Assembly (NCBI GenBank): GCA_015062805.1
Contig: SUTQ01000003.1
Coordinates: 62,001-126,000 of the forward strand
Reading direction: 5' to 3'
Length of the DNA: 64,000 nucleotides
Source of the DNA: Methanosphaera stadtmanae
GTDB taxonomy: Archaea; Methanobacteriota; Methanobacteria; Methanobacteriales; Methanobacteriaceae
Both the position numbers and the translations under genes were made by a program. The notes under the pieces are model-generated. The model ran no database searches. It had not been told where the DNA came from and worked only from the letters and a program-made list of their open reading frames with translations. Numbering within the stretch: position 1 is the stretch's first letter; every line of letters starts with the position of its first letter. Shown piece by piece: positions 11,436 to 33,272 of the stretch.

Positions 11436-12713
11436 ATGAAACTCTTCATCAATTTTATAAATTCATTTAAAAATTTTTTTAAAAAAATATTTCTAAAAAA
11501 TAAAATAATAAATGAAGAATATGTTGAAATAGTAAACTTAATGACTGATGACATTAAAAATGGAAACTTTGAAAATTTCGAAGCTTATAATAAAATAAAA
11601 GAATATGATTTATTTGATGAAGATTACTACTTAAAACAATGCACTTTTAAACCAGAAATAGATTCTTTAATACATTATATTTACAAAGGACATAAAATGA
11701 ATTTAAATCCTTGTAAATTATTTAATACTTCATTTTATAGAAGTCGTTCAAATACGGGAAAAAATGAAAATCCCTTAGTTTATTTCGTAAATTATGGAAT
11801 ATATGAAGGTGTTACTCAAGTAAATAAAGATATTTGGCAACCTCCAGCAATTAATAGATTTGAATTAGATAAAAAAATAAAAAAATTTAAATTTTTCGGA
11901 ATCAATCAAGAAGAACGTAAAACAAAAATAATTGTTTCACTAACTTCATATCCTAAAAGAATTCATGAAATAAAATATACAATTTATTCTTTATTGAATC
12001 AAGAGGTTAAACCAGATAAACTTGTATTATGGCTTTCAAAAAATGAATTTCCTAATAGAGAACAAGATTTACCCAAAGAATTATTAAAATTTTTAAAATG
12101 TGGTCTAACAATAAGATGGTGTGATACATTAAAATCATATAAAAAATTGTTACCTTCTTTAAAGTCGTATCCAAACGAAGTTATTGTTACAGCTGATGAT
12201 GATTTATATTATCCTAAAGAATGGTTAAAATTATTATATGATTATCATATTCAGTACCCAAATGAAATACTTACCCATAGATCAAGAAGAATTTCATTTA
12301 ATGAAAATAATATTAAAAAATATTTAGAGTGGGAACTATGTCAAAAAGAAGAAGAGGCTAGTTTTTTAAATTTCTTCACAACTGGAGGCGGTGTTCTTTT
12401 TCCACCAAACTCATTATCTAAAATTGTTGAAAACAAAGAAATATATGAAAAAATATGTCCAACTGGAGATGACATATGGTTTTGGGGCATGGCAATTCTA
12501 AAAGATACAAAAATCCGTGTTGTTAAAAATAATTTGTTTATAGTCACATATGTTAATCCTGCAAGAGACATAGTATTTAATAAAGATACATTATGGTCCT
12601 ATAATGAAAAACATAACGATGAACAATTTAAAGCTTTGTTCGATAAATATCCCGAAATTTATAAAAAAATATTAAAAGATAATCGGATTAATTCTACTAA
12701 TCAGGAGGAATAA
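11436..12713 (+). CDS. Putative GT-A glycosyltransferase with N-terminal repeat region
   Basis: The C-terminal catalytic-looking domain (about residues 165-400) has VSLTSYPKRI, TIYSLLNQ, KLVLWLSKNEFP, KSYKKLLPSL and a DDD metal motif (VTADDDLYY near residue 253). This pattern occurs in bacterial capsule-type glycosyltransferases with a GT-A-like fold. The N-terminal 110 residues carry two tandem units of the type FDEDYYL...LIHYIYKG and FNTSFYR...PLVYFVNYG, a repeat common at the ends of bacterial surface-glycan transferases. No strong SD precedes the ATG. The product starts a plus-strand run that continues with the first SGNH module 1 nt later, which suggests joint action on one glycan. Substrate is unknown. 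Confidence 0.75.
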   Translation: MKLFINFINSFKNFFKKIFLKNKIINEEYVEIVNLMTDDIKNGNFENFEAYNKIKEYDLFDEDYYLKQCTFKPEIDSLIHYIYKGHKMNLNPCKLFNTSFYRSRSNTGKNENPLVYFVNYGIYEGVTQVNKDIWQPPAINRFELDKKIKKFKFFGINQEERKTKIIVSLTSYPKRIHEIKYTIYSLLNQEVKPDKLVLWLSKNEFPNREQDLPKELLKFLKCGLTIRWCDTLKSYKKLLPSLKSYPNEVIVTADDDLYYPKEWLKLLYDYHIQYPNEILTHRSRRISFNENNIKKYLEWELCQKEEEASFLNFFTTGGGVLFPPNSLSKIVENKEIYEKICPTGDDIWFWGMAILKDTKIRVVKNNLFIVTYVNPARDIVFNKDTLWSYNEKHNDEQFKALFDKYPEIYKKILKDNRINSTNQEE

Positions 12714-12714
12714 C

Positions 12715-13623
12715 ATGACATTGAACTTATTGACAGAGGACATTAAATTAAATATGGCAAATCCCAAAGTATTTAAATTCAAAACTAATGCTCAACGATT
12801 TAAAATAAATTTTAAAGTTACTGATATTATTCGAGGTAATTATCCTCATGTAGGAATACCAGCACATGAAGGAATCATGGTTTTATACAGAAAATCAGTA
12901 AATTCACCTCAAAAAGATTTAAAAGAAAGAACTTGGTATAATGTTGAAGCATATACTGAAAGATACGATACAACCGTCTTTATGCATCATTTAGTTAAAC
13001 CTGGTGAAGAATATGAAGTAATGATTTATGGTCCCATATTAAGTAAAATATCTCAATTAGAAATTGAACATCCTGAAGGAACTTTTGCAGAAGAAATTAA
13101 AGAATCACCTAAATCAAAAATATTAGTTGCTGGAGGAACTATGAGTTTTGGTATTGGATGTACAACATCAGCTATGTTATTTTCCAGTATACTATCTCGA
13201 AAATTTAATGCATCAGTAGATCATTTAACATTCAATAATTCAAATTATTTAACTGATATTAATAACTATTATAAAGAAAATAATGAAAAAAATGAATATG
13301 ATATTGGAATTTTAGAATTAGATTATTCAAACCAGAAAGATGAACTTGTTGATACTTATCTTAAAAATGTAATTACAATGATGAAATCACATTGTAAAAA
13401 ATTAATCTGTTGGTATAGTCTCCCACCTTATAGATCATATAAGAAAAATAAAATTAATACTATATTAAATGAAATCCCATCTGAAAATATTATTTTTCAA
13501 GATATATCATACCTATTTGATAAAGAAAATGTAGATATATGCTCATATAGTGGAAATTTCATTAATGATTCAGGGAATATGTTAATTTACAAAAAACTAG
13601 AAGAAATTATTAGGAGTTTATAA
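12715..13623 (+). CDS. SGNH-like companion protein, copy 1 (catalytic Asp/His absent)
   Basis: It matches the layout of the downstream SGNH hydrolase: a beta-rich N-terminal half with G-I-M-V-L-Y, where the partner has the GxDLY motif, and an SGNH-like C-terminal half. Block I reads GGTMSFGIGC near residue 139, so Thr takes the nucleophile position. Block V reads SGNFINDSGNM, where a hydrolase has DxxHYTDYGM, so both catalytic Asp and His are missing. It is probably a non-catalytic partner or carbohydrate-binding protein. GGAGGAA precedes the ATG. It begins 1 nt after the upstream GT stop and ends 1 nt before the hydrolase gene. The 302-residue length is complete. Paralogues lie at 19128 and 32376. 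Confidence 0.65.
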   Translation: MTLNLLTEDIKLNMANPKVFKFKTNAQRFKINFKVTDIIRGNYPHVGIPAHEGIMVLYRKSVNSPQKDLKERTWYNVEAYTERYDTTVFMHHLVKPGEEYEVMIYGPILSKISQLEIEHPEGTFAEEIKESPKSKILVAGGTMSFGIGCTTSAMLFSSILSRKFNASVDHLTFNNSNYLTDINNYYKENNEKNEYDIGILELDYSNQKDELVDTYLKNVITMMKSHCKKLICWYSLPPYRSYKKNKINTILNEIPSENIIFQDISYLFDKENVDICSYSGNFINDSGNMLIYKKLEEIIRSL

Positions 13624-13624
13624 A

Positions 13625-14686
13625 ATGGAATACTTAACCGATATTAATAATTCTCTTAAAAGCATAAACGAAGAAAACGTTGAATATATTGATTTATTTG
13701 ATTATCCGGAATTATTTTATGGAACAACAAATTTTACTACTACACGCCTAAATTTATGTAAATTTCCAAAAGAAGCTCAAGAAGAAATCAAAGATTATGG
13801 TGCTGGAGCAGTAAGTGAAATGAAGAATTTGAATAGTTCGGCATGTGGTGTTCGTTTACGTTTTTTCACTGACAGTAAAAAACTTATTTTTAAAGTAAAA
13901 TTTAAACGCCGATGGGGATATCTTAAAATGGTCAATTGGGGTGGATTTGGTTTTGATGTTTATGGACTGAATAATGAGGAATATATCCATAGAACCGTAT
14001 TTGCACCAAATAACGGTCATAACATATTCGCTGAAACTATTTTACCACCAGAAAATGGACAGTTATGTATCTTCCTTCCAAATTATAACACTATTGAAGA
14101 ATTATATATGGGTATAGAACCTGGAAGTACCATTAAATCATTGAATTATCCTCCAGATAAACGATTACCTGTTTTATTTTATGGAAATTCAGTAACACAA
14201 GGTGCTGCTGCTTCTCATAGTGGAAATAGTTTTCCAAATATTGTGAGTAAAATTTTAAATAGGGATATTTTAAATATATCTTGTTCAGCTTGTTGTAGAG
14301 GAACAGATACTATGGCAGAGCTAATGGGAAAAATTAATTGTCATAGCATAATTATAGATTATACTCGAAATGCTTATAGTACACAAATATTCAAAGATAC
14401 TCACGAAAAATTTTACAAAAAAGTAAGAAGTCTACATCCTGATAAAAAAATAGTTTTGATGACTTCACAAAGCTTCAATCATTGGAGAGACTATGATGAA
14501 TTCGATGAAATAGTTGCCCAAACTTATAAAAATTCTATTGACAGAGGAGAAAATACTGAAATAATAAATCAAAAGCAATTATTTAATGATGAAGATTATG
14601 ATATTATAGCAATCGATTCAACACATTACACAGATTATGGAATGCATAAAATAGCGAAAAAAATATGTGAATTAATTGAAAAATAG
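13625..14686 (+). CDS. GxDLY/SGNH-family hydrolase, copy 1 (predicted glycan acyl-esterase)
   Basis: It is predicted to remove acyl groups from a carbohydrate. The N-terminal domain has GFDVY, matching the GxDLY motif that names that family. The C-terminal SGNH domain has block I YGNSVTQGA with the nucleophile Ser near residue 190. A GMA/GNS-type SGNSFPNIVS stretch and the CCRGT oxyanion region follow. The catalytic dyad is Asp331 and His334 in DSTHYTDYGM. The 353-residue length suits the GxDLY plus Lipase_GDSL_3 architecture. GGAG lies about 8 nt before the ATG, and the gene starts 1 nt after the companion's stop, so the two are probably made together. No signal peptide is seen, so it may act in the cytoplasm on lipid-linked or nucleotide-linked glycan. 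Substrate is inferred. Confidence 0.82.
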   Translation: MEYLTDINNSLKSINEENVEYIDLFDYPELFYGTTNFTTTRLNLCKFPKEAQEEIKDYGAGAVSEMKNLNSSACGVRLRFFTDSKKLIFKVKFKRRWGYLKMVNWGGFGFDVYGLNNEEYIHRTVFAPNNGHNIFAETILPPENGQLCIFLPNYNTIEELYMGIEPGSTIKSLNYPPDKRLPVLFYGNSVTQGAAASHSGNSFPNIVSKILNRDILNISCSACCRGTDTMAELMGKINCHSIIIDYTRNAYSTQIFKDTHEKFYKKVRSLHPDKKIVLMTSQSFNHWRDYDEFDEIVAQTYKNSIDRGENTEIINQKQLFNDEDYDIIAIDSTHYTDYGMHKIAKKICELIEK

Positions 14687-14735: not shown

Positions 14736-17700
14736 ATGATAAAAAAAATTAAAAATAAAATTTTAGAGAATAGTGGTAGTTATAAATATTATAAAAATAA
14801 ATATCAAACTTTAAAATCTCAAAATAAAGAAAAGGACAAAAAAATTAAAGAATTGAATAATGAAATTAAATTAAAAGACTTATCCATTACCAGATTACAA
14901 AATGAAAAACATGAACTTTCTACACAAAACATCCCCCAATCTTCTGATTCGGAATTTTTAGTAAATATTGAAAATACTGAAGGTCTGTTCACAGAAAACA
15001 AACTATTTGAAGATTTTGAATATGCTTTTTCCATAATTATTCCATTATTTAATTCTGAAAGATATTTAGAACAATGTATAATCTCAATTATCAATCAAAC
15101 CATCAATTTTAAAGAAAATGTGGAATTGATATTAATTGATGATGGAAGCAATGATTCAACAAAAGATATAAGTTTTAAATACAAAGAATTATATCCAACC
15201 AATATTTTTGTATACTCCCAAGAACATCAAGGTCAATCCATAGCACTTAATAATGGAATAAAATATTCAACAGGAAAATACATTAATTTCTTAGATAGTG
15301 AAGATTATTTGTCCAAAAATTGTCTTGAAGAAGTCTATAAATTTTTCCAGGAAAATAAAGAAATAGATGTAGTGAGTATTCCTATAAAAAATTTCGGTAG
15401 AAAAAACGATGGAGATTTATTCAACAACAAATTTAAATCAAAAGAAAATATTATTGATATCATCGAATCACCAGATTATCTCCAGTTTAAACTTTCATCT
15501 ACATTTATTAAATCAGAAGTTATTAAAAATGAAAATTACTCCTTTGAAGAAAAATTAAATGTATTAGAAGATTTTACATTTATAAATAAAATTTTATTAG
15601 ATAAGAAAAAATTAGGTTTAATAAAAAATGCAGTTTATCACAATAGACAAAGATTAGATTTCACATCAAAAGAAGATGAAATAATGAGGAATGACTCTTA
15701 TTTAAACGATGTGAAAAAAAGTATAGATATATTACTTGAATCTTGCGATAAAGAGGATAATGTACCTCTTTTTATTCAAAATTTAATTATCATTATTTCA
15801 TATAACCTAATAAATACAGATAACACTTTAAATGACGATACAACTCGGAAAATTAAATCAATAATTGCAAAAATTTTAGAAAATGTTGATGTGGATACTA
15901 TTAATTCAAATAATTACTTAGATAATCAATCTAAATTAATCTTGATTTACCTAAAAAATAATGAAAAAAAATCTATAGATATCAGTGAAGATAATAAAGT
16001 TTCATTAACCAGTAATGATATTACTTTAGACACATTAAATAATCATAAAATATATATCCAAAACTTTAGCAACAACGATGAAACAATAAAAATTACCGGT
16101 TTCTTCGGAACAAATTTCAATGATGAATTAATCAACTTAAAGTTTATTAAAGAGTACGATGATACAACAGAAGAATACAACTGTGAAATCAATTCAATAG
16201 TGAAAAAATCATTTTTAAACCTTGACTGGTTTTTTGAACATAACTTTTTTGTAGAGGTACCATTTAATAAAAATGATAATGCAAATTGTTATTTTAATAT
16301 AATTTATGAAAATACAAATGAAAAAATCATGATTAAACCTGAAATAACAAAAAAAGAGGTTAATCTTTTAAAAGAACAGAAAAATATTGTAATAAACCCT
16401 TATTTAATCACTATTAATAAAGATTCTTTTACTATAGAACATGGATATAACTTTTCAATCATTATTGCAATTTACAATACTGGAGAATATTTATATGAAA
16501 CAATTGATTCAGTTATTGGACAAACCTTATCATTTGAAGATAATGTTCAACTTATTCTAGTTGATGATGGTAGTGAAGATAATTCTAAAGAAATCTGTTT
16601 AAATTATCAGAAGCAATACCCTAACAATATAGTTGTTTTATCCCAAACAAATTCTGGCCAAGCTGTAGCTAGGAATAATGGTTTAAACTATGCAAAAGGA
16701 AAATACATTAATTTTTTAGATAGTGATGACTATATATCTGAAAATACATTAGAAACTGTTCTGACATTTTTCAATAAACATGAAAAAGAAATTGACATGG
16801 TTGCTATGCCAATTAAAATGTTCGGAAGATTAAACAAATATCATATTTTACAAGGAAAATTCCATAGAGAAAGGGTAATTGATCTTGAACTTGAACCAAA
16901 TAATCCTCAATTATCCGCTTCATCAGCATTTTTTAAGAACGAATTATTCCCTAAATTTAAATTTGCTGAAGATATGATTACATCTGAAGATTCTATAATG
17001 ATTAATAAAATTTTACTAGAAAAACAGAAATTTGGAGTAATAAATTCTGCAACTTATTATTATCGAAAAAGATTTGATTCTAGTTCTACAATAGATAATT
17101 CAATTCGTCAAAAAGAATTTTACACAGAAAAAATCAAAAACTATTTTATGGCATTGGAAGAGTACTCTTACGCAAAATTAGGTAAGATACCTTTATTTAT
17201 CCAATACCTAATTGCATATGATATCCAATGGCTTCTTAAAGAACCCGAATTAAAACTGTTAAACAACGAGGAAAGAGAAGATTTTATCAATCAAGTGAAA
17301 TATGTAATTTCAAATTTAGATGAACAGGTTATCTTTAAAAATCAATATGTTTCAAATGATGTTTTCAAAAATTTCTTCTATTATTTAATGAAAGGAAATT
17401 TTGATGTGAAACCTAAAAAAGATACTGTAGAAATATTCATAGGTAATAAAAGAATTGATAACTTAAAAATCCATAGCTTTTGGTTAGATATCGTTGAGAT
17501 TAAGGGTAATCTTTTGAATATTTCAGGATTATTGAGCAGTTATTTTCCTTCTGATCTTTTAGAAATTACTGCTGTTAAAGAAGATTACGATAATAATGTA
17601 ATTGATGAATATACTGGAAAAAAAGTGGAATACTCTGCAGATCAAGATGTGAAATTTTTAGATTATACTTGGCAATATAAGTATTTCTTTGACTTACATA

Positions 17701-19112
17701 TTCCAATTGAAGAAAATGAAAAATCTAACATAAAAATTTATGCAAATTATCATGAAAAAGATACAGACATACTAATATCTTGTCCATTGAACGTAAACTT
17801 TAAAAGACATTGCAGATTATCCAAAAATAGCAAATATATAGCAAAAGATTCACATATATTAACTTTCGAAAACAACACTTTTAAATTAGAAGGTTATCGC
17901 TATAAAAAGATGCGCGAATATGAACAGGAAGTATGTGAAAATATTGAAAAAGAAAAACCATTTGAATACCAATCTTTATTAAAATTAAGAAAACATTATT
18001 CAATATTATATTACATTAAAAACAAATTTTATAAAAAGCCAATTTATCTATTCATGGATAGATCAAATCATGCCGATGATAATGCAGAACATTTGTTTAG
18101 ATATGCAGTAAAACAAAAAGACAATATCAAAAAATTTTTCATAGTAGGTAACGATTCAGAACTAAGTAAGCTAAATAAAATAGGACCAACCCTAAAATAC
18201 AACTCATTCAAACATAGGTTAGTGTATTTACTTGCAGATAAAGTAATTTCATCACATCCTGATGAATATGTTTTAAATCCATTCTTTGAAGTCGATGAAG
18301 ATCAAAGAGATTTCATGAATAGTTTAATTACATCCGAAACATATTTTTTACAACATGGGGCAACATTAGGAAATGTTTCCGACTGGTTACATAAATATGA
18401 TAAAAATCTATCATTACTAGTGACTATTTCAGATAAAGAACATGATTCATTTTTAGAAAAAGGATATAATTACGACGAAAACATTATACAAACATTAGGT
18501 TTCCCACGATATGATAATCTATCCAACGATCCGAAAAAACAGATATTGATAATTCCTACTTGGAGACAAGACTTGGAAGTCAGTGAAGATGTTTTCAAAA
18601 ATTCTAGTTATTTCAAAAATATTACAGGTATATTAAATAATAAGGAATTGAGAAATAAATTGAAAGAAAAAGGTTATAAAATAGTATTTAAACCACATCC
18701 TAGATTAGAAAATAAAATACGTAACAGCAAAAAAAGGTTTATTGATTTATTTGAAATTGATGATGAAATAATTATATCACAAAATGAATCATATCAAGAT
18801 TTATTCAGAGAATCCAATATATTAATTACTGATTACTCATCAGTCGCATTTGATTTTGCTTACCTTAAAAAACCTATAATTTATTTCCAACCTAATGATG
18901 ATTATCATCACGGAAAAGGATATTTTGAATTTGAAACTATGGGCTTTGGAGAAGTAATTAAAGATAAAAACAAATTATTCAATAAAATAGATTATTATTT
19001 AGATAATGATTTTAAAATGGAAAACAAATATGTTGAAAGAGTTGAAACATTCTTCAAATTCACTGATAAAAATAATTGTGAAAGAGTATACAACTGGATA
19101 AAAGAACATTAA
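14736..19112 (+). CDS. Three-domain protein: GT2, GT2 and CDP-glycerol glycerophosphotransferase (TagF)-like
   Basis: This very long (1458-residue) predicted glycan polymerase or assembly enzyme begins with a charged coiled-coil (about 20-70). GT2 domain 1 starts near residue 98 (FSIIIPLFN) and has an altered metal site, LDSEDYL, near 186. A beta-rich linker leads to GT2 domain 2 near 574 (FSIIIAIYN) with an intact LDSDDYI near 661. Another beta-rich linker precedes the C-terminal domain (about 1100-1455). That domain has FMDRSNHADDNAEHL, LQHGATLG near 1207, FKPHPR and ITDYSSVAFDFAYLKKP near 1365, the hallmark of the TagF/TagB glycerophosphotransferases of teichoic acid synthesis. TGGTG precedes the ATG. 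Domain order suggests alternating sugar and polyol-phosphate addition. CDP-glycerol as donor is inferred. Confidence 0.85.
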   Translation: MIKKIKNKILENSGSYKYYKNKYQTLKSQNKEKDKKIKELNNEIKLKDLSITRLQNEKHELSTQNIPQSSDSEFLVNIENTEGLFTENKLFEDFEYAFSIIIPLFNSERYLEQCIISIINQTINFKENVELILIDDGSNDSTKDISFKYKELYPTNIFVYSQEHQGQSIALNNGIKYSTGKYINFLDSEDYLSKNCLEEVYKFFQENKEIDVVSIPIKNFGRKNDGDLFNNKFKSKENIIDIIESPDYLQFKLSSTFIKSEVIKNENYSFEEKLNVLEDFTFINKILLDKKKLGLIKNAVYHNRQRLDFTSKEDEIMRNDSYLNDVKKSIDILLESCDKEDNVPLFIQNLIIIISYNLINTDNTLNDDTTRKIKSIIAKILENVDVDTINSNNYLDNQSKLILIYLKNNEKKSIDISEDNKVSLTSNDITLDTLNNHKIYIQNFSNNDETIKITGFFGTNFNDELINLKFIKEYDDTTEEYNCEINSIVKKSFLNLDWFFEHNFFVEVPFNKNDNANCYFNIIYENTNEKIMIKPEITKKEVNLLKEQKNIVINPYLITINKDSFTIEHGYNFSIIIAIYNTGEYLYETIDSVIGQTLSFEDNVQLILVDDGSEDNSKEICLNYQKQYPNNIVVLSQTNSGQAVARNNGLNYAKGKYINFLDSDDYISENTLETVLTFFNKHEKEIDMVAMPIKMFGRLNKYHILQGKFHRERVIDLELEPNNPQLSASSAFFKNELFPKFKFAEDMITSEDSIMINKILLEKQKFGVINSATYYYRKRFDSSSTIDNSIRQKEFYTEKIKNYFMALEEYSYAKLGKIPLFIQYLIAYDIQWLLKEPELKLLNNEEREDFINQVKYVISNLDEQVIFKNQYVSNDVFKNFFYYLMKGNFDVKPKKDTVEIFIGNKRIDNLKIHSFWLDIVEIKGNLLNISGLLSSYFPSDLLEITAVKEDYDNNVIDEYTGKKVEYSADQDVKFLDYTWQYKYFFDLHIPIEENEKSNIKIYANYHEKDTDILISCPLNVNFKRHCRLSKNSKYIAKDSHILTFENNTFKLEGYRYKKMREYEQEVCENIEKEKPFEYQSLLKLRKHYSILYYIKNKFYKKPIYLFMDRSNHADDNAEHLFRYAVKQKDNIKKFFIVGNDSELSKLNKIGPTLKYNSFKHRLVYLLADKVISSHPDEYVLNPFFEVDEDQRDFMNSLITSETYFLQHGATLGNVSDWLHKYDKNLSLLVTISDKEHDSFLEKGYNYDENIIQTLGFPRYDNLSNDPKKQILIIPTWRQDLEVSEDVFKNSSYFKNITGILNNKELRNKLKEKGYKIVFKPHPRLENKIRNSKKRFIDLFEIDDEIIISQNESYQDLFRESNILITDYSSVAFDFAYLKKPIIYFQPNDDYHHGKGYFEFETMGFGEVIKDKNKLFNKIDYYLDNDFKMENKYVERVETFFKFTDKNNCERVYNWIKEH

Positions 19113-19127
19113 ATTAAAGTTGATAAT

Positions 19128-20009
19128 ATGAAAATTGAGTTATTACCTGAAAAAACTAATGAAAAAGATGTGCAATTTAGCAATCCATTAGTATTTCATT
19201 TAAAAACTAATTCAGAAAAAATTGAAATAGAATATGAAGTAACTGATATTATTAATGGAAATTTTCCACACGTTAGTTTGAACTCTAGAGAAGGAATACA
19301 TTTACTCTACAAAAAGGATGGATGGAAAAATTTTGATATTGATTATAAAAATTCAAAATTTTCTCTAGATTTAACCGATAAACTCAATGAAGAAAATACC
19401 TGTGAAATTTTAATTTATGGACCAATTTTAAGTAATCTGGGGAAATTATCATTAAGAATAAATGATAACTGTTACTTGGAACAAATAAAGAACAAAGATA
19501 ACATACTTATAGCTGGTGGTATTCATAGTTTAGGAATAGGATGTAATGCTGTTAGTACAATGTTTTCTACAATTGTTTCAAGAAAAATGAATTTAGAACC
19601 ACATTATCTGGTTTATTATAATAGAAATTTTTTAGAACAGTTATACAAATATTTTAAAGATTTAAGTGAGTTTCCTAAATATAAGTATGGAATTCTTGAA
19701 CTTGATTATGTGTTCCAGGATAATGTCTTTGTTGATAGACACTTGAAACAAGTGATAAATTTCATGATGAAATCCTGCGAAAATCTTATTTGTTGGTATA
19801 CATTACCTCCAAATCAAAAGAATAAGAAAAATAAGATTTTTAACATACTAGAACCTATATTAAATGGTGAAAATATAATCTTGGAAGATTCATCATTTAT
19901 TTATGAACCGAAATATGCTGACATGTGCACATATAGTAATAATTTTATTAACGATACGGGAAACATAATGATTTATAAAAGAATTGTTAAAAATTTGGAG
20001 GTTCTTTAA
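19128..20009 (+). CDS. SGNH-like companion protein, copy 2 (catalytic residues absent)
   Basis: A 293-residue paralogue of the products at 12715 and 32376. The N-terminal half has REGIHLLY, matching the GxDLY position. Block I reads GGIHSLGIGC near residue 129, with Ile instead of the nucleophile. The C-terminal block is NNFINDTGN, lacking the Asp-x-x-His pair. It also keeps the family's central LELDY and LICWYTLPP motifs, which all three companions share. The conservation of these suggests a retained non-catalytic role. A GTTGAT Shine-Dalgarno precedes the ATG. The following hydrolase gene begins on the next base after its stop. Confidence 0.62.
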   Translation: MKIELLPEKTNEKDVQFSNPLVFHLKTNSEKIEIEYEVTDIINGNFPHVSLNSREGIHLLYKKDGWKNFDIDYKNSKFSLDLTDKLNEENTCEILIYGPILSNLGKLSLRINDNCYLEQIKNKDNILIAGGIHSLGIGCNAVSTMFSTIVSRKMNLEPHYLVYYNRNFLEQLYKYFKDLSEFPKYKYGILELDYVFQDNVFVDRHLKQVINFMMKSCENLICWYTLPPNQKNKKNKIFNILEPILNGENIILEDSSFIYEPKYADMCTYSNNFINDTGNIMIYKRIVKNLEVL

Positions 20010-20945
20010 ATGGAATATTTAAAATCAATAAACGACGTAACATCACAGGACGAAAATTTTAATTTTATTGATATTACTGATAATTCAGATTTTATTCATG
20101 GAAATATGTTTGATAGTATCAAAGAGTTCCTTAATAAGTCTTTATACGATAGTTTTAAAAAAACCAGTAGTGGGAATAGGTTATGTTTTTCAACTTCATC
20201 AAGGAAAATTCTGCTAAAAGTAAAATTAAATAATGTTGAAGAATATCCAAATATTGTAGATTGGAATACAAAAGGGTTTGACGTTTATGAAGTAAACAAT
20301 GGAATATATTACCATAAAACGGTATTCGCACCTTTTAAAGAAAATAATATTTTTTCAGAGATTATTCATAATAAACCAAATTCTCAATTGTGTGTTTTTT
20401 TACCAAATTTTTCAAATATTGAAAAATTATTAATTGGGATTGAAAAAGATTCAGAATTAAAAAGTGTTAAATATCCAAATGAAGAAAATCCGATAATATT
20501 TTATGGAAACACGACGACTCAAGGAGCTTCTGCATCACGTAGTGGAAATTCATATCCCAATATAATCAGCAGAAAAAAAAATATGGATATGATTACTTTT
20601 ATTCATAAAGATAATGAAAATGAATATTCATTAATTAAATCATTAATTCAAAGTAAAAATAGTAATATAGTACTTCTTTTAAAACAAAACACTTTCAAAA
20701 CCAGTATCGAAGAAATACAAAAATTAAAGAAAGACACACAAAATATAATTATATTAATAGACGATGATTTCAATGATGATAATTTGAACTATGATGAATT
20801 GAATAATATGAAAATTTTTAGATATTCAGAATTATTTGAAATTAATGAATTAGATTATTTAACAACGGATAAGAAACATTTTACTGATTATGGAATGTAT
20901 ATTCTTGCTAAAAAAATATGTGAAAACATTACTGAAAATCATTAA
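20010..20945 (+). CDS. GxDLY/SGNH-family hydrolase, copy 2 (shortened and altered)
   Basis: A 311-residue paralogue of the 13625 and 33260 products. The N-terminal GFDVY motif is intact. Block I reads YGNTTTQGASAS, so the nucleophile Ser is replaced by Thr. The Asp-Lys-Lys-His dyad (TTDKKHFTDYGM) is kept. The stretch that in the other copies holds the CCRGT oxyanion region and the EIDC...IDYSR segment is shortened and replaced by Lys/Asp/Asn-rich sequence, so the protein is about 40 residues shorter. It is likely inactive or strongly altered. GGAGGTTC lies upstream of the ATG, and the gene directly abuts its companion. The next GT gene lies in the same frame right after its TAA. Confidence 0.65.
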   Translation: MEYLKSINDVTSQDENFNFIDITDNSDFIHGNMFDSIKEFLNKSLYDSFKKTSSGNRLCFSTSSRKILLKVKLNNVEEYPNIVDWNTKGFDVYEVNNGIYYHKTVFAPFKENNIFSEIIHNKPNSQLCVFLPNFSNIEKLLIGIEKDSELKSVKYPNEENPIIFYGNTTTQGASASRSGNSYPNIISRKKNMDMITFIHKDNENEYSLIKSLIQSKNSNIVLLLKQNTFKTSIEEIQKLKKDTQNIIILIDDDFNDDNLNYDELNNMKIFRYSELFEINELDYLTTDKKHFTDYGMYILAKKICENITENH

Positions 20946-20957
20946 GAGGCGATTAAA

Positions 20958-22043
20958 ATTTACAAAATATCAATAATCATTCCAGTATACAATTTAGAAA
21001 ACTTGATTGATAGGGCATTTGATTCTTTATATAATCAAAGTATCGGTTTTGAAAATTTAGAAATTATTTTTATTGATGATTGCTCAAATGATAACAGTAA
21101 AGAAAAGATTCTAAACTACTCAAAAAAATATGGGAATGTAATTGGAGTATATTTAAATGAAAATAGCGGATTTGCGGGCAAACCACGAAACGAAGGATTA
21201 AAATATGCTACTGCAGATTATATTATGTTCCTAGATCCAGACGATTATTATCTGGAAGATGCCTGTGAAACTTTATATGATAAAATAACTACAGAAAATG
21301 TAGATTTAGTTTCAGGAAACTTTTGTTTAGATAACGAATCAAACATACATTCATGGAATCACGTTAATATAACTGACGAGATTAAAGTAACTAATATTGA
21401 AGAAAAACCTTCATTATTGTTATTAGCACCCTCAATTTGGACAAAAATATATAAAAGGAAATTCATTTTAGAAAATGAAATTAAATTCGATGAAAATTTA
21501 CCGGGACAAGATGCATTATTCTTATATTATGCATTAATACATGCAAATGGTATAATTTTTATGAATAAAGTATTGGTTGTCTATTGCAAAAGAGATTATA
21601 ATAAAATAAAAGAAAAATCTATTACCGATAATAAAACTTATAAAAGATTATCTGACTATTTAAACGTATATGAAAAAATGTACCATGTACTGAATAATTA
21701 CAATAATGAATTAGTTATTGCAGTTTCCAGCCATTTTTCATATTGGAGTAATTTATTAAAAAACAGTGATATTCCTACACCAGAAAAAATTAATTTAATA
21801 CATACTTTTCAAGAGTTATTAAGAAAGACAAACAGTTATTTAACAGCAGATAATGAATTAATACAATTATTGATACCCATTCAAATGAATACAATTATCA
21901 ACATTTTAAATATTCAAAACGAGGATCTTGAAAAGAAAATGTTAAATAATTTTGATGTAACAGAAAGATATCAACAAAAAATTATAGAATTAAATAATAA
22001 ACTTTATATAGAAAATAAGAAAAATAAAACTAAAACTATTTAA
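20958..22043 (+). CDS. GT2 family glycosyltransferase, likely non-ATG (ATT) start
   Basis: This is a GT2 enzyme with IIIPVYN, FIDDCSNDNS, RNEGLKYA and metal site FLDPDD. A TTG at 21003 would delete the first beta strand (KISIIIPVYN), and the in-frame codons upstream run back to the TAA of the preceding SGNH gene at 20943-20945 without ATG, GTG or TTG. The best initiation signal is GAGGCGAT at 20946-20953, close to the GAGGTGAT used elsewhere here, followed after 4 nt by ATT at 20958. The gene therefore probably starts at ATT, or its start codon was recently mutated. The middle has PSIWTKIYKRKFI and PGQDALFL, typical of the GT2 paralogues here. It closes the plus-strand block. Confidence 0.75.
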   Translation: MYKISIIIPVYNLENLIDRAFDSLYNQSIGFENLEIIFIDDCSNDNSKEKILNYSKKYGNVIGVYLNENSGFAGKPRNEGLKYATADYIMFLDPDDYYLEDACETLYDKITTENVDLVSGNFCLDNESNIHSWNHVNITDEIKVTNIEEKPSLLLLAPSIWTKIYKRKFILENEIKFDENLPGQDALFLYYALIHANGIIFMNKVLVVYCKRDYNKIKEKSITDNKTYKRLSDYLNVYEKMYHVLNNYNNELVIAVSSHFSYWSNLLKNSDIPTPEKINLIHTFQELLRKTNSYLTADNELIQLLIPIQMNTIINILNIQNEDLEKKMLNNFDVTERYQQKIIELNNKLYIENKKNKTKTI

Positions 22044-25279: not shown

Positions 25280-25999
25280 TTATGAATTTAATTTTTTTCT
25301 TCTTTCTTTCATTAAAACATAACCTTCAAAAAGATCCAAATCTTCTTTAGTTGTAATTTTAAGATTTATTTGATTGCCCTTAGAAAAATAAATTTCTTCA
25401 CCCATCAAATACATCAATGTTGTAGTATGTGGTTCTACTTTCTCTATCAATCCTTTTTCTATGGCCTCATCATACAAGTTAGTAACATATGAAAATTTAA
25501 AACACTGTGGTGCATTAAATATTACAACTTTATCCCTATCAATCCAAGTAGTTGATTTATCACCATCATTACTACCCAATAATAACAAGGATGACATAGC
25601 TGGAGAAGAGTTACCTTTTTCTTTACATACTCTTATTGCATCAGAAATAACATCATCAGTAACAAAAGGTGAAGCACCATAATGTACTAAAACAATATCC
25701 TCATCATTAATTTTCCCTTTAAGATTATTTATTCCATTTATAACAGAGTGTTGAAAATCTTCTCCACCAGGAGTTATCCATTTAACTTTATCAAGATTAT
25801 ATTGTTCAACTAAATCCTTTAAATACTCAATGTGACTTTCAATACAAACGACTTCTATTGCATCAATTTCAGGATGATTTTGAAATGCCTCAATAGTGTA
25901 CACTAATACAGGTTTTCCCAAGATATCAACAAATTGTTTTGGTCGATCAGCACCTAGTCTTGAACCAACGCCTCCAGCTAATATAATCGGAATATTCAT
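25280..25999 (-). CDS. IspD/TarI-family cytidylyltransferase
   Basis: It is predicted to couple CTP with a polyol or sugar phosphate to give a CDP-activated precursor. The N-terminal signature LAGGVGSRLGADRPKQF is that of the IspD/TarI family, with the catalytic Lys in PKQF, and NLKITTKEDL is typical of the C-terminus. Archaea make isoprenoids by the mevalonate route, so a TarI-like cell-surface role fits better than IspD. The usual HDAARPF motif reads HYGASPF, so the metal-binding Asp and the Arg are absent; this marks a divergent subgroup. Its ATG overlaps the stop of the LicC-LicA-like gene by 1 nt (TAATG) with a GAGGAGAT Shine-Dalgarno, so the two are translationally coupled. No TarJ-like dehydrogenase is seen. 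Confidence 0.83.
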   Translation of the reverse strand: MNIPIILAGGVGSRLGADRPKQFVDILGKPVLVYTIEAFQNHPEIDAIEVVCIESHIEYLKDLVEQYNLDKVKWITPGGEDFQHSVINGINNLKGKINDEDIVLVHYGASPFVTDDVISDAIRVCKEKGNSSPAMSSLLLLGSNDGDKSTTWIDRDKVVIFNAPQCFKFSYVTNLYDEAIEKGLIEKVEPHTTTLMYLMGEEIYFSKGNQINLKITTKEDLDLFEGYVLMKERRKKLNS

Positions 26000-27597
26000 T
26001 ATATCTCCTCATAACTCAATAAAACATCATCTATATTATCTAAAATATATCTATATGAAGTTAAGAAGAAAAATCCATCTTCTTCTCCTACACTACCTTT
26101 AAATAATCCCCAACTTATCCAGTATAACGCATTTAATATGGATTGTCCCATTGCATGCCTATGCTCTAACTCAGTCAATTCTCTACCATAAAATGCTTTT
26201 AATAATTTTTCCCGTACTTCCTCAGAATACTCGTATCTAGTAAATATACTACATACATCATTTGCAGGATCATTTATTCCAGAATATTCCCAGTCAATTA
26301 AGTAAAAATCACCTTCTTCAGTTGATATGAAATTAGGCTCATAAACATCATGATGACTAACAACTAACTCAATACCATACTTTTCTCTTTCTTGTTTTAC
26401 ATAACTATCTACTTGATCAATTTTAGAGAATAATTCTTCAAATTCCTTAAATAAGTTTCCTTTTGTTCTACAAGCTTTAGTAATTAATTTTTTTGATTCG
26501 ACAACATTATCAAACAATTTTGCTTCATCAGACAATGGTATTTCATGAGTTTTATGCAATGCATCCATTACTTGTTTTAAATGTGTTTCATTATTTAAAA
26601 TATCACATGGAATAATATTTTGTATAAAATGAGATATTTTCCATCCTGTTTTATCCATATAAATTAATGATTTGTCTAATCCATACTCTTTAGCTTTGTA
26701 TTGTGTATATAATTCCGTTCTTCTGTCAATTAAATTGTCCGCAGTTCCTCCAGGATGTCTATACACATATTCATGACCCTCTATAGAAAATTTAAATGAA
26801 ACATTCGTTAATCCTGCCTGGATTACTTCAATATCCTTAATATCATTAGGATGACAATCCAATGTTTTACAGATGTTACTAATAATTTCAGAGTCTACAT
26901 TTAATAAGAAATCAGAATCAAATTGCCTTAAATCATCTATTGAATCAAATTCCAATAATTCCTTTGAATCAAACTTATTCATATAAAGCGTTAATTCCTT
27001 TATGTGTGTAGCATAAAATTCTTCCCAGAACATATTAGCTATTCCAAAATCATTTATTTCCTCTTCTAATCTTTCTCTGAAAATTTTTGAAAAGCCTTCA
27101 TTAAAATATGCATGAGCTATCATAGCCATACTATTTTCTCCACCCACATAACAACCAGTAATTATGTCAGCATCTGAATTATCTATAGAAAATTCACGGA
27201 ATTTATCAGATATATATGTACATGCACGATAAGACCTGTTTTCTTCATTATTATCTATAAATGGATTAGTTAAAAAATAGTGATCGGCACAACAAATATA
27301 TGTATTTTTTAGATATTCCCTTGTTACATACAATGAGTATATATTTCCAAATTTACCATAAGTGTTATTTACAACTAATTTAACTTGAGGATACTTTTGT
27401 TCGAGATAGAAAAATTTTTCTTTCATATATCCTATTACAACACAGATTTCATTTACTCCTGCTTCAATCAACTGTTCAATTTGTCTTTCTATCAAGACTT
27501 CTCCTCTTACTATAAAGAGTCCTTTAGGTTTTTCATAACTGAATGGTGCAAATCTATCTGATTTTCCTGCTGCCATTATTATTGCATTTTTTTCCAT
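25999..27597 (-). CDS. LicC-LicA-like fusion: nucleotidyltransferase plus choline-kinase-like domain
   Basis: It is predicted to phosphorylate choline (or a related amino-alcohol) and activate it as a CDP derivative. Residues 1-230 are a nucleotidyltransferase of the LicC type, with IIMAAGKSDRF, EKPKGLF and VVIGYM. The C-terminal half (about 245-532) is a choline/aminoglycoside-kinase fold. It has the catalytic HHDVYEPN at 415-422 (Brenner motif HxDxxxxN) and LIDWEYSGINDPANDV from Asp435, which matches the choline kinase motif. GAGGTGT precedes the ATG. It is coupled to the TarI-like gene and lies 3 kb from a LicD-domain gene. Such fusions are known in bacteria, so acquisition by transfer is likely. 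Choline specificity is inferred; ethanolamine or another alcohol is possible. Confidence 0.85.
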   Translation of the reverse strand: MEKNAIIMAAGKSDRFAPFSYEKPKGLFIVRGEVLIERQIEQLIEAGVNEICVVIGYMKEKFFYLEQKYPQVKLVVNNTYGKFGNIYSLYVTREYLKNTYICCADHYFLTNPFIDNNEENRSYRACTYISDKFREFSIDNSDADIITGCYVGGENSMAMIAHAYFNEGFSKIFRERLEEEINDFGIANMFWEEFYATHIKELTLYMNKFDSKELLEFDSIDDLRQFDSDFLLNVDSEIISNICKTLDCHPNDIKDIEVIQAGLTNVSFKFSIEGHEYVYRHPGGTADNLIDRRTELYTQYKAKEYGLDKSLIYMDKTGWKISHFIQNIIPCDILNNETHLKQVMDALHKTHEIPLSDEAKLFDNVVESKKLITKACRTKGNLFKEFEELFSKIDQVDSYVKQEREKYGIELVVSHHDVYEPNFISTEEGDFYLIDWEYSGINDPANDVCSIFTRYEYSEEVREKLLKAFYGRELTELEHRHAMGQSILNALYWISWGLFKGSVGEEDGFFFLTSYRYILDNIDDVLLSYEEI

Positions 27598-27890: not shown

Positions 27891-29189
27891 CTATTTTTTA
27901 TTTGAAGAACTGATTTTTGAATTGATATAATCCTCATATTCAATATTAAGTTTTCGCTTAGAAATTAATTTTTTGGATTCATCTTTAATTTTTAAATTTT
28001 CGTTAATAAGAGTATCATATAATTCAAGATTTTTATTTAAATAATCAGATTCAATTTTCAATAATTTATTTTCTTGTTTTAACCTATTAATAGTGGATGC
28101 GGAAGATAAAGCAATATACTCATTAAAATTATCGCTGTTTAAAATATTTTCATATTTTTCAAAAATTAAAGCAAAGTCTGCATCCTCTTCAAGGATATTT
28201 TTGACTTCATTTTTGAAAATAACCTGTTTTAATAAAAATTCTTTAGTTTTATTAAAAAGAAGGTTTGAATACTCTTCTTGGAAACCAACATAAATAGAAT
28301 TAGAATTATAATATTTAGAATAATCAAAATATTTATTTCTAAAATTTTTCCTTTCATTTTTAGGAACATGTAATATATAATCATGGAATTTAGACATGTC
28401 TAAATTATCTGTAAGAATTTTTAATTTAAACTTAATAAATTCGTTTTCATATTTTTCTAACAAATTTCTTCTCAATAAATAGTTTTCAATTCCTTCAATT
28501 GCATCAACAACTTCCAAAGAAGAACAATCGGCAGAAATCATATGATCATTAATTAATTTAAAGTTTTCATGAATGTTCAATGCCTTGTGAAATAGCAAGG
28601 TATCCTCAACTGAAAATACGTTTTTAGATAACACACTAATTTTTATGTCAAATACGAAATCAAAAACATTGTCATTATCAAAAATTTTTTCAAAATTATA
28701 TATTAAAAATTTTCTTGAAAATAACTTATTGTATAAATTATTTAAATTTGAAAAAATATATTTTTTAAAATCTTCTGAATCACAATTGACTACTTTTTGT
28801 CTTTCAACAGACCACTTTTCTTTTAGTTTTTTTTCGAAAAAATTTCTATTAATTTTATCCTCTTTAGAATAATTGTTAGAATTAAAACATATGAAATCTA
28901 AATCATTATTTGAAATATTATTTAAAAGAACGTTTAAAGAATCTGTTAATAAATAATCACCAGATTTTAAGAAAAGAACATACTCTCCGTTACATTTATT
29001 AATTATATTCTCGAATGAATCCTTATTAAATATTTTAATATAATCTACTTTGGTTTCAATATTTTCATTATTCAAATATAAAATTTCAAAATTTTTAAAT
29101 GATTGATTCTCTAATGAATTAATCGTAATGTTCTGATTATTATTATCCTCTCTCAAAAAAATTATAGAAAGTTTTGGCTCAACAGTCAT
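27891..29189 (-). CDS. Degenerate GT2-like protein
   Basis: A 432-residue protein with a recognisable GT2 outline (LSIIFLRED, TINSLENQSFKNFEILYLN, GEYVLFLKSGDYLL). The nucleotide-binding DGS-D motif is gone, and the metal-binding site reads LKSGD where active paralogues have LDSDD. The C-terminus is long, charged and coiled-coil-like (KLLKIESDYLNKNLELYDTL). The N-terminus is spaced like its neighbours and a GGAG Shine-Dalgarno precedes the ATG, so it appears expressed. It follows the intact GT2 at 29265 on the same strand, the same intact-degenerate pairing seen at 9882 and 8783. A non-catalytic partner or scaffold is one explanation; decay is another. Confidence 0.65.
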   Translation of the reverse strand: MTVEPKLSIIFLREDNNNQNITINSLENQSFKNFEILYLNNENIETKVDYIKIFNKDSFENIINKCNGEYVLFLKSGDYLLTDSLNVLLNNISNNDLDFICFNSNNYSKEDKINRNFFEKKLKEKWSVERQKVVNCDSEDFKKYIFSNLNNLYNKLFSRKFLIYNFEKIFDNDNVFDFVFDIKISVLSKNVFSVEDTLLFHKALNIHENFKLINDHMISADCSSLEVVDAIEGIENYLLRRNLLEKYENEFIKFKLKILTDNLDMSKFHDYILHVPKNERKNFRNKYFDYSKYYNSNSIYVGFQEEYSNLLFNKTKEFLLKQVIFKNEVKNILEEDADFALIFEKYENILNSDNFNEYIALSSASTINRLKQENKLLKIESDYLNKNLELYDTLINENLKIKDESKKLISKRKLNIEYEDYINSKISSSNKK

Positions 29190-30528: not shown

Positions 30529-32139
30529 TTAAAATTTAAATTTCTTATTTACATTATATATTCTTTTTAAATCAGCTTTAAATATTTCAGGAGCCTTTTC
30601 ATCATATCTGAAACGACCCACCCTATTATGCGTACGAATAGTAGGTGGAACTTCCATAAAGTTTCCATAAATATTTTTTAAATATTCATAAGAGTTATTA
30701 GGAGCATAAAATTCATAATCCCCATAAGGAACATTTTTCAGAGGGAATACATCTTCTGACTTAAATATCATTAATTTGTACAAATTATGTAGTCCACAGG
30801 CCCCTTCAACACCTGGAATAACATACTTATCATAATCCATATTCAAATTCAAAGATTTATAATAATTTTTAAGAACTGAATCAGGATCCAATCCATTATA
30901 AGCTAAGCTAAAATCATTTCCTTCAGTTAACTCCCTGTAATAGTCAAGTTTAGTATTATAATATATTTCATTAATAGTTTCTTCATCATAATCCATGATG
31001 AAATCATATGGGAATACATCTACACCAGCAAATATTGTATTTCCAGCATAATCTGTTTTATGAATATCAAATATTTGAAGGAATGAATTTACTTTATTAT
31101 TGTCAATTTTCCGTTTTCTATAACTTACCCTAAGAATATCATCCAATTTATTTTCTTTGATTTCATCAATAATTACTTCATTTAATTGATTATATTCCTT
31201 TCTCATCATTCCTATATCAACATCATCATCCCAAGGAATAAAATACTGATGCCTAATTGCACCTAATAAAGTTCCATAATCTAACCACCATTCAAGATCA
31301 TATTTTTTACAAACATTTCCTACAAAAGATAGTAATTCAGTACATAAATCTTGAGTATACTTTAATAAATTTTTAGACTTTAATTCATGATCTAAAAACA
31401 AATTATTAAATAAAAAATTGTTTGATTCTAGTACTTCATTGGTATATTGTTCAAAATTATCAAATCGTTCTTTCAAATTAATTACTTCTTGTAACAAACG
31501 TTCATAATTTTTATCTGTATCATTTCTGGAGAAAAATGTGGAAACAATACTATCTTCAGAATATAATTCAAAATCACTAAATTTAATAAAAGAATCTTTA
31601 GATAATCTCCAAGTGAAATAACCTTTACCTTCTTTCAAACTGAATGAATAAGATTTAATTTTTTTATTATTAATGAAAATAACCAACTTATTATTCTCGT
31701 AAGAAATTAAAATATGGTCATTAGTTTTTAAAGAAAAATTATCTATATTAATGTTTTGAAAAGATTCTTCAAGATTTACAAAACGTAAAGAAACATTGCT
31801 ATGACCCAAGTAATTAAATTCCATTTTAAATGATACTGGTAATATTAAACGATTATGATTATTATCTGTTAAATATGAAAAAAATATTTTTTTAGACTTA
31901 TTTTCAATTAAAGAATAAGTTTCAAACCTTTGAATATTATTTTCTTTACTCCAACAATCATTGTGTTCTACTTGTATTCCTTTATCTTTTTGAATAATAT
32001 TATGAACAACCGTGTTATTAATTAAATCAAAAAATGTTAAATTATTTGGATTTATTAAACCAAGAGAATTGATTTCGTTAGACTTATCCATTGTCAATAT
32101 ATTTAGAGAAACACTATTAGTATTATCGTTTTTTGCCAT
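30529..32139 (-). CDS. LicD-domain phosphocholine transferase-like protein with N-terminal beta-sandwich
   Basis: It is predicted to attach phosphocholine (or a related phospho-substituent) to a glycan. The LicD domain starts near residue 258 with DLCTELLSFVGNVCKKYDL, followed by WLDYGTLLGAIRH near 287 and the metal-binding IPWDDDVDIGM near 302-310, the defining LicD motif of the nucleotidyltransferase fold. The N-terminal 200 residues are beta-rich (FKMEFNYLGHSNVSLRF, then GYFTWRLS) and resemble a concanavalin-like sandwich, perhaps for glycan binding. GGTGA precedes the ATG. With the LicC-LicA-like fusion 3 kb away it would complete a choline, phosphocholine, CDP-choline, glycan route. No LicB choline transporter is present in the window. 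Confidence 0.85.
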   Translation of the reverse strand: MAKNDNTNSVSLNILTMDKSNEINSLGLINPNNLTFFDLINNTVVHNIIQKDKGIQVEHNDCWSKENNIQRFETYSLIENKSKKIFFSYLTDNNHNRLILPVSFKMEFNYLGHSNVSLRFVNLEESFQNINIDNFSLKTNDHILISYENNKLVIFINNKKIKSYSFSLKEGKGYFTWRLSKDSFIKFSDFELYSEDSIVSTFFSRNDTDKNYERLLQEVINLKERFDNFEQYTNEVLESNNFLFNNLFLDHELKSKNLLKYTQDLCTELLSFVGNVCKKYDLEWWLDYGTLLGAIRHQYFIPWDDDVDIGMMRKEYNQLNEVIIDEIKENKLDDILRVSYRKRKIDNNKVNSFLQIFDIHKTDYAGNTIFAGVDVFPYDFIMDYDEETINEIYYNTKLDYYRELTEGNDFSLAYNGLDPDSVLKNYYKSLNLNMDYDKYVIPGVEGACGLHNLYKLMIFKSEDVFPLKNVPYGDYEFYAPNNSYEYLKNIYGNFMEVPPTIRTHNRVGRFRYDEKAPEIFKADLKRIYNVNKKFKF

Positions 32140-32375: not shown

Positions 32376-33272
32376 TTGAATTTTTTTGAATCGGAAAAGA
32401 TGCATAGAACACAAGTAGATTCTATGGCTTATACATTTGAAAGCAATGCTCAACAATTTACTGTTAATTATGAAGTTTCACATGTTGTTAAAGGTTATTT
32501 TCCACAAATAGGTCTTACCGCCCGTGAAGGAATATGTATAATGTACAGACCTTCTGGAGAGAATCAATGGTTTAATATAGATTGTTATACAATCATTTCA
32601 TCAGTTAATGTAAATATGAATAATTTTGTTGAAAAAGATGAAGTATACGAAATCATGATTTATGGGCCAATTATTGGAAAATTATCTAAATTAGAAATTG
32701 AGTTCCCAGATGAATCATATGCTAAAATAATTAATTGGATTCCTGATAAAAGCATATGCGTTGCAGGTGGTTCCAATAGTTTTGGAGTAGGTTGTACAAC
32801 TACTGGATTGATGTTTTCAAATATACTGGAAAGAAAACTTGGTGCACAAGTGTATCACATAACATATAACCACAAAAATTATTTAGAATCCATCCATAAT
32901 TATTATAAAAATTCAAATCCCCCTGTATGTGATGTTGGAATTCTTGAATTAGATCATTATAGTCAAAATGAATCAATCGTAGAAAATTTACTTCCAGAAG
33001 TAATTTCATTAATGAATCAAAGATGCAAATATTTGATTGGATGGTATAGTCTGGCAAATGTAAAATCTTATAAGAAAATTATTGCAAATAATACTATTCA
33101 TGATTTTATTTATAATAATGAAATTGAAATAGTAGATTTATCTTATTTGTACGATGAGAAATATAGAGAAATGTGTACTTATAATAATTATTATATTAAT
33201 GATACAGGTAACATAATGGTTTATAAAGAGCTAAAAGATGGCATTAGGAGGATTACAAAGTGGAAAATTTAG
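32376..33272 (+). CDS. SGNH-like companion protein, copy 3 (catalytic Asp/His absent)
   Basis: A 298-residue paralogue of the 12715 and 19128 products. The N-terminal half has REGICIMY at the GxDLY position. Block I reads GGSNSFGVGC, so a Ser is present at the nucleophile position here. The C-terminal block reads NNYYINDTGN, with no Asp-x-x-His, so hydrolytic activity is doubtful. LELDH and IGWYSLA match the shared central motifs. The start is uncertain. The TTG at 32376 lies 13 nt after GGGGGA, which is rather far, and a non-canonical ATA at 32370 or the ATG at 32400 are alternatives. Its 3' end overlaps the hydrolase gene by 13 nt. Confidence 0.63.
   Translation: MNFFESEKMHRTQVDSMAYTFESNAQQFTVNYEVSHVVKGYFPQIGLTAREGICIMYRPSGENQWFNIDCYTIISSVNVNMNNFVEKDEVYEIMIYGPIIGKLSKLEIEFPDESYAKIINWIPDKSICVAGGSNSFGVGCTTTGLMFSNILERKLGAQVYHITYNHKNYLESIHNYYKNSNPPVCDVGILELDHYSQNESIVENLLPEVISLMNQRCKYLIGWYSLANVKSYKKIIANNTIHDFIYNNEIEIVDLSYLYDEKYREMCTYNNYYINDTGNIMVYKELKDGIRRITKWKI

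Follow-up and report, generated by a model that had tools for sequence, protein, structure and literature searches.

Within a 64-kb stretch of an assembly assigned to Methanosphaera stadtmanae (contig SUTQ01000003.1, positions 62,001 to 126,000, here called the window), an open reading frame (ORF) on the plus strand (14736..19112) starts with ATG and encodes a protein of 1458 amino acids. Its translation, Pfam matches and self-comparison gave the layout of a polymerase: two successive units of a glycosyltransferase family 2 (GT2) domain plus linker, followed by a TagF-type phosphotransferase domain. Pfam matched Glycos_transf_2 over two separate stretches (E 9e-65) and placed Glyphos_transf (PF04464) on residues 1098-1455 (E 1.2e-48; 166.4 bits, passing the curated cut-off of 22.1). 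Because residues 91-570 matched residues 566-1095 in self-comparison (34% identity, E 1e-72), the GT2 domain with its linker is a tandem duplication.

Modules and catalytic residues of the protein

All parts of the protein lie on the plus strand. An N-terminal region of about 70 residues (14736..14945), lysine/glutamate-rich and coiled-coil-like as judged from the translation by eye only, precedes GT2-A (residues 96-350; 15021..15785) and linker A (residues 351-570; 15786..16445), a helical then beta region recognized by homology to linker B. GT2-B (residues 571-825; 16446..17210) is followed by linker B (residues 826-1095; 17211..18020), for which a predicted model gave helices and then a beta region like the C-terminal parts of RmlT and TarS. 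The TagF-type domain (residues 1096-1458; 18021..19109) was delimited by Pfam, alignment and profile search. In motif alignments GT2-B was intact, with VDDGS, ARNNG, FLDSDD, SED and YYYRKR, whereas GT2-A, with IDDGS, ALNNG, FLDSED and VLEDF, was partly degenerate by comparison. A first-pass annotation made from the letters had proposed two GT2 domains and a C-terminal TagF-like domain, and had named the motifs HGAT, KPHPR, TDYSS, LDSED (GT2-A) and LDSDD (GT2-B); the layout was confirmed by Pfam, self-comparison and profile matches, and every motif was found in the translation.

A search of the PDB with the TagF domain as a single sequence returned nothing useful, and relatives surfaced only by profile search. 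With a profile built from 16 archaeal sequences, the solved structures matched were TagF of Staphylococcus epidermidis (3L7J, 3e-35), TarL (8VA1, 4e-24) and the capsule polymerase Cps3D (8QOY, 6e-20), in agreement with a teichoic-acid or capsule polymerase layout, of which the first-pass annotation had suggested the teichoic-acid type. In alignments, His1207 of the HGAT motif (18354..18356, +) fell on the first catalytic histidine of TagF (H444), and His1321 of KPHP (18696..18698, +) on the second conserved histidine of TagF-like domains. Both histidines, together with TDYSS, were kept across the 16 archaeal TagF domains, and both columns stayed invariant when bacterial GT2-TagF relatives, which share the blocks ADDNAEHLY, QHG(I/V) and TDYSS with the archaeal domain, were aligned as well. 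The characterized enzymes of GT-A/TagF-like layout are alternating polymerases in which mutating either His or DxD kills activity (PMC5974469). Judged by these residues, both catalytic modules, GT2-B and the TagF domain, are intact in sequence.

The genome concerned, an archaeal assembly of 2.1 Mb that is 99.9% complete, encodes only one PF04464 protein, the polymerase itself, along with two MtaB genes. The first-pass annotation had called such a layout unexpected in a pseudomurein-walled archaeon. That was wrong: the same genome carries the pseudomurein gene pmurB (above cut-off), PF04464 was found in 120 of 139 genomes and 15 of 17 genera of the family, and phosphate-rich walls with teichoic-acid gene homologues were published for Methanobrevibacter ruminantium in 2010 (PMC2812497), so that TagF-type domains are ruled out as a surprise in pseudomurein archaea. 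A transcriptome paper likewise names mru_1079 as a CDP-glycerol:poly(glycerophosphate) glycerophosphotransferase (PMC5816558), and two GT2-TagF fusions of 1178 and 1224 amino acids adjoin each other in an M. ruminantium-type locus (L081). No literature report of such enzymes in Methanosphaera was found, subscription journals lying outside the search. One member of the genus (G124) had no PF04464 and can serve as a naturally occurring negative control in comparisons of wall chemistry. The enzyme type is thus known and widespread in the family; what is new is the stacking of partly decayed GT2 modules and the question of which phosphate building block is used.

Proposed reaction and phospho-unit donor

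From the domain order, duplication, motif states, distribution and relatives observed here, we infer a polymerase activity, a donor, a reaction order and a cellular place. The protein is probably a cytoplasmic, bifunctional phosphodiester-linked glycan polymerase of the GT-A/TagF-like kind, with GT2-A as an auxiliary module. GT2-B would add a sugar to the growing end, probably in beta configuration, by inversion, and the C-terminal TagF-type domain would then attach to this sugar a phospho-unit taken from a nucleotide-activated donor, forming a phosphodiester. Performed in turn, the two steps would yield a phosphate-linked surface or wall heteropolymer, whose decoration would fall to the neighboring GT2s, the SGNH esterase-like proteins and LicD.

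The phospho-unit might be hexose-1-phosphate, from a uridine diphosphate (UDP)-sugar, or glycerol- or ribitol-phosphate; the former holds a narrow lead, with about an even chance against a little under even for the latter. TagF-like domains transfer hexose-phosphate or glycerol-phosphate, and the published products follow domain order, poly(oligosaccharide phosphate) where GT-A precedes TagF and poly(glycosylpolyol phosphate) where TagF precedes GT-B (PMC5974469); the order here is GT-A/TagF. At the position of TagF P447 and Bcs3 G99, glycerol-transferring enzymes have Pro and ribitol-transferring ones Gly (PMC10299916). This Pro/Gly signature was absent from all 14 genus sequences, which have T or I there, and P was found in the two M. 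ruminantium-type proteins. Two 99%-complete members of the genus (G110 and G111) encode intact GT2-linker-TagF enzymes and gave no strong match to IspD/TarI or TagD, only weak generic ones (IspD, 3e-12 and 1e-8; TagD, 3e-7 and 5e-8); on the gene content seen, a TagD/TarI-type maker of cytidine diphosphate (CDP)-polyols alongside the polymerase seems not to be obligatory in the genus.

Bacterial relatives bear on the same question. With the polymerase core as tblastn query, plasmid sequences yielded GT2-TagF proteins of Citrobacter freundii, another Citrobacter and Limimaricola. The C. freundii plasmid protein (1394 amino acids) is a GT2-TagF-tetratricopeptide repeat (TPR) chain matching at 33% over 71% of the query core, and that of Limimaricola (887 amino acids) matches at 24% over the full core; both genes sit in capsule loci with ATP-binding cassette (ABC) exporters and Stealth proteins. 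No cytidylyltransferase was listed in the incomplete gene tables of the Citrobacter plasmid locus or among the listed genes of the Limimaricola locus, whose unannotated gaps were not read. None was seen in the only unannotated Citrobacter gap read (about 13.5-14.5 kb of L110, immediately preceding the Stealth and polymerase genes), where the ORFs looked insertion sequence-like by eye. We lean toward a hexose-phosphate donor because of the GT-A/TagF order, the missing Pro or Gly, the two genomes G110 and G111 and the lack of a cytidylyltransferase in the Citrobacter and Limimaricola listings. The C. freundii gene (L096, 5884-10068) lies on a conjugative plasmid that also bears blaTEM-1, aac(3)-IId and mph(A).

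The first-pass annotation had instead suggested that the wall polymer may contain sugar-polyol-phosphate repeats. On that model the TagF domain would use CDP-glycerol or CDP-ribitol, and the product would be a poly(glycosylpolyol phosphate) or a GT2-decorated poly(polyol phosphate) made by a fused TarL/TarS-like machine. We rate this a serious contender, plausible but not preferred, given that characterized GT-A/TagF enzymes transfer hexose-phosphate, that the P447/G99-aligned residue does not follow the Pro/Gly rule and that a CDP-polyol maker seems not to be obligatory. The glycerol-type HGTP signature kept by the M. ruminantium GT2-TagF proteins speaks for it. So do an IspD/TarI-family gene about 6 kb from the polymerase (25280..25999, -; profile match and motif) and, in other parts of the genome, a further gene of the IspD family and a fusion with a TagD-like domain. 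However, the window gene reads HYGASPF for the usual H-D-x-x-R-P-F, directly adjoins a LicC-LicA fusion in every one of the six genomes with this gene (81-88% identity in the other five) and is missing from seven polymerase-bearing genomes, so it serves the LicC-LicA pathway at least as plausibly. As an obligate donor maker of the polymerase it was rejected, since it tracks LicC-LicA and not TagF.

Several points weigh against the hexose-phosphate polymerase that we prefer. The activity of the archaeal members is predicted from sequence, and no exporter was identified in the scanned parts of the window. The three candidate CDP-polyol makers of the target genome (the window IspD-like gene, the second IspD-family gene and the TagD-Gfo/Idh fusion on contig C14) make CDP-polyols possible there. 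An AlphaFold model of GT2-B with linker B, built from nine window sequences, resembled the ribitol-phosphate glycosyltransferases RmlT, TarS and TarP, which would favor a polyol acceptor; the model is weak (predicted local distance difference test [pLDDT] score, 66.5), and Foldseek aligned about 500 of 525 columns with RmlT and TarS (E ~1e-18) at template modeling (TM) scores of 0.38-0.48, with poor domain placement. A single-sequence prediction of residues 822-1458 (pLDDT 38) was not used. Finally, a GT2-like N terminus is present in S. epidermidis TagF itself, and layout alone therefore does not fix the donor.

The LicC-LicA fusion (CTP:phosphocholine cytidylyltransferase plus choline kinase; 25999..27597, -; profile match) had pneumococcal LicC (1JYK) and a choline kinase (4R77) as its best solved relatives, and six of the 20 genus genomes carry it paired with the IspD-like gene. 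With the LicD-family phosphotransferase (30529..32139, -; profile match), these genes make a phosphocholine-type decoration pathway probable in this archaeon. Contig C14 of the same genome also holds a second phospho-glycan locus (L065, 7356-13497) with a TarI-like IspD, an NAD epimerase, two LicD-like ORFs, an aminotransferase-like ORF and the TagD-like-Gfo/Idh oxidoreductase fusion; TagD-like ORFs of similar size (about 440-458 amino acids) are widespread in the family.

Number and decay of the GT2 modules

Across the genus, single-module enzymes of about 880-950 amino acids consist of the GT2-linker-TagF core, which is therefore considered the functional unit. Other TagF proteins of the genus have two GT2 domains (the target and proteins of G115, G116, G118 and G125), three (G118 and G122) or five (G115). 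The five-module protein (2553 amino acids; L074, 6201-13862, in a closed genome) has one TagF domain, and its first GT2 is heavily decayed. DxD was intact in 13/13 untruncated last GT2s, those adjoining TagF, versus 7/13 upstream ones (Fisher p 0.015), and median terminal branches were 0.37 versus 1.64 (Mann-Whitney p 7e-5), although these sequences are related, non-independent and from few genomes, which makes the p-values indicative only and is a further point against our reading. In the two closest full-length relatives (G122 and G116) the upstream GT2s had decayed (IESGD, LECGD, LSNKD), with DxD, DDGS and the RN motif lost. The target GT2-A is more mildly changed (ALNNG for ARNNG, DSE for DSD) and has a branch about three times that of GT2-B in a GT2 tree in which long, decayed modules are placed unreliably and from which no order of duplication is claimed.

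Its motifs and branch length mark GT2-A as a tandem copy evolving under relaxed constraint, with activity likely reduced or lost. The earlier suggestion that one of the GT2s may be inactive thus stands as a possibility, on the DxE and ALNNG of GT2-A and the decayed upstream modules of the two closest full-length relatives. GT2-A would most likely serve in acceptor binding or assembly rather than in essential catalysis.

Alternatively, both GT2s might be catalytically active, each contributing a different sugar to the repeat to give a disaccharide-phosphate unit, module number setting repeat length in the relatives. GT2-A still has DDGS and the ED base, upstream modules are intact in some relatives (G118 L076, G125 L080 and two in G115 L074), and the characterized CslB/Cps12B make trimeric repeats. 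Yet the loss of DxD, DDGS and the RN motif upstream in the closest relatives, together with the D-to-E and R-to-L changes and long branch of the target GT2-A, leaves us to consider this unlikely. More speculatively, and with only a slim chance of holding in full, these proteins might form a genus-specific archaeal polymerase family with a constant GT2-TagF core and 0-4 upstream modules turned into non-catalytic pseudo-GT2s, which would retain the growing chain or determine its length or composition, the product being a sugar-phosphate (not polyol) heteropolymer outside the pseudomurein. It is improbable that the protein is no polymerase and extends a glycolipid or a protein-linked glycan by a single phospho-unit and sugar, as a TagB- or transition-transferase-like enzyme would: PF04464 also includes single-addition enzymes and an exporter was not seen nearby, but the fused glycosyltransferase-TagF layout is that of processive polymerases and this is the sole PF04464 protein of its genome. 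Cps7A/C-type transition transferases, which act ahead of a polymerase (PMC11666461), are the precedent for such a role.

Neighboring genes and comparison with known systems

Immediately around the polymerase, Pfam matches on the plus strand identified upstream a GxDLY/SGNH-type small partner (12715..13623) and a GxDLY plus SGNH protein (Lipase_GDSL_3; 13625..14686), a putative esterase or acyl-modifying enzyme conserved beside the polymerases of the genus, and downstream a second such small partner (19128..20009), a second GxDLY plus SGNH protein (20010..20945) and a GT2 glycosyltransferase (21003..22043). Farther upstream lies a glycosyltransferase-like protein with a weak GT2 match (11436..12713, +; Pfam and neighborhood), which is a conserved neighbor in the nearest relative, G122. 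The flanks in G122 are the same throughout (glycosyltransferase-like protein, two GxDLY/SGNH pairs and GT2), and SGNH pairs were also found beside polymerases in G111, G115 and G118. The SGNH proteins would probably act on acyl groups of the polymer, removing or moving them. The two-gene GxDLY/SGNH cassette occurs three times in the window (12715-14686, 19128-20945 and 32376-34321, +); in the larger partner GNSxTQG and a DxxH-like end are preserved, and four other genus genomes have such pairs beside polymerases. The proteins at 11436-12713, with a TADDDLYYP motif, and 27891-29189 are both glycosyltransferase-like with sub-threshold GT2 matches and possibly represent an unlisted glycosyltransferase family. 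The glycan cluster as a whole (6768-35451) has a G+C content of 24-26%, against 33% before and 28% after it, which is compatible with lateral acquisition but is also common for surface-glycan loci.

Some methanogens, such as M. ruminantium, have phosphate-rich walls without an identified polymer (PMC2812497), and the enzyme and its relatives offer a concrete, expressible candidate, with the donor distinguishable by release of uridine versus cytidine monophosphate (UMP versus CMP). The surface polymers of methanogens in gut and rumen matter for host immunity and for methane-mitigation vaccines, and the series from intact to decayed GT2s is a natural experiment on how bifunctional polymerases gain auxiliary domains.

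Among known systems, the group 2 capsule polymerases of GT-A/TagF-like type (Cps1B, Cps12B, CslB and Ccs2; PMC5974469), whose synthesis of poly(oligosaccharide phosphate) releases UMP and UDP, share with this protein a GT-A (GT2) domain N-terminal to a TagF-like domain in a single chain, with both active sites present; the intact DxD of their GT-A domain is found in GT2-B (FLDSDD), and GT2-A has FLDSED. They differ in that the archaeal enzyme has no TPR domain by Pfam (a feature of most members, though not obligatory; PMC5974469), has 1-5 tandem GT2 modules in the genus and a linker with a beta region, and resides in an archaeal host. The wall teichoic acid polymerases TagF and TarL (3L7J, 8VA1) share the PF04464 catalytic domain, the catalytic histidine pair and TDYSS, and S. 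epidermidis TagF also the GT2-like N terminus (residues 4-218), but the domain studied here has HGAT/HGVT where they have HGTP and a shorter loop after HG. The wall teichoic acid glycosyltransferases TarS, RmlT and TarP resemble the GT2, helical and beta architecture of the weak model over nearly the whole module, yet they are stand-alone decorators of poly(ribitol phosphate), whereas here the module is duplicated and fused to a phosphotransferase. Closest in host are the GT2-TagF proteins of M. ruminantium (L081), archaeal GT2-PF04464 fusions of the same family that differ in their single GT2, glycerol-type HGTP and strong PF04464 match (E 1.7e-106); even with these, the TagF domain shares only about 23-25% identity.

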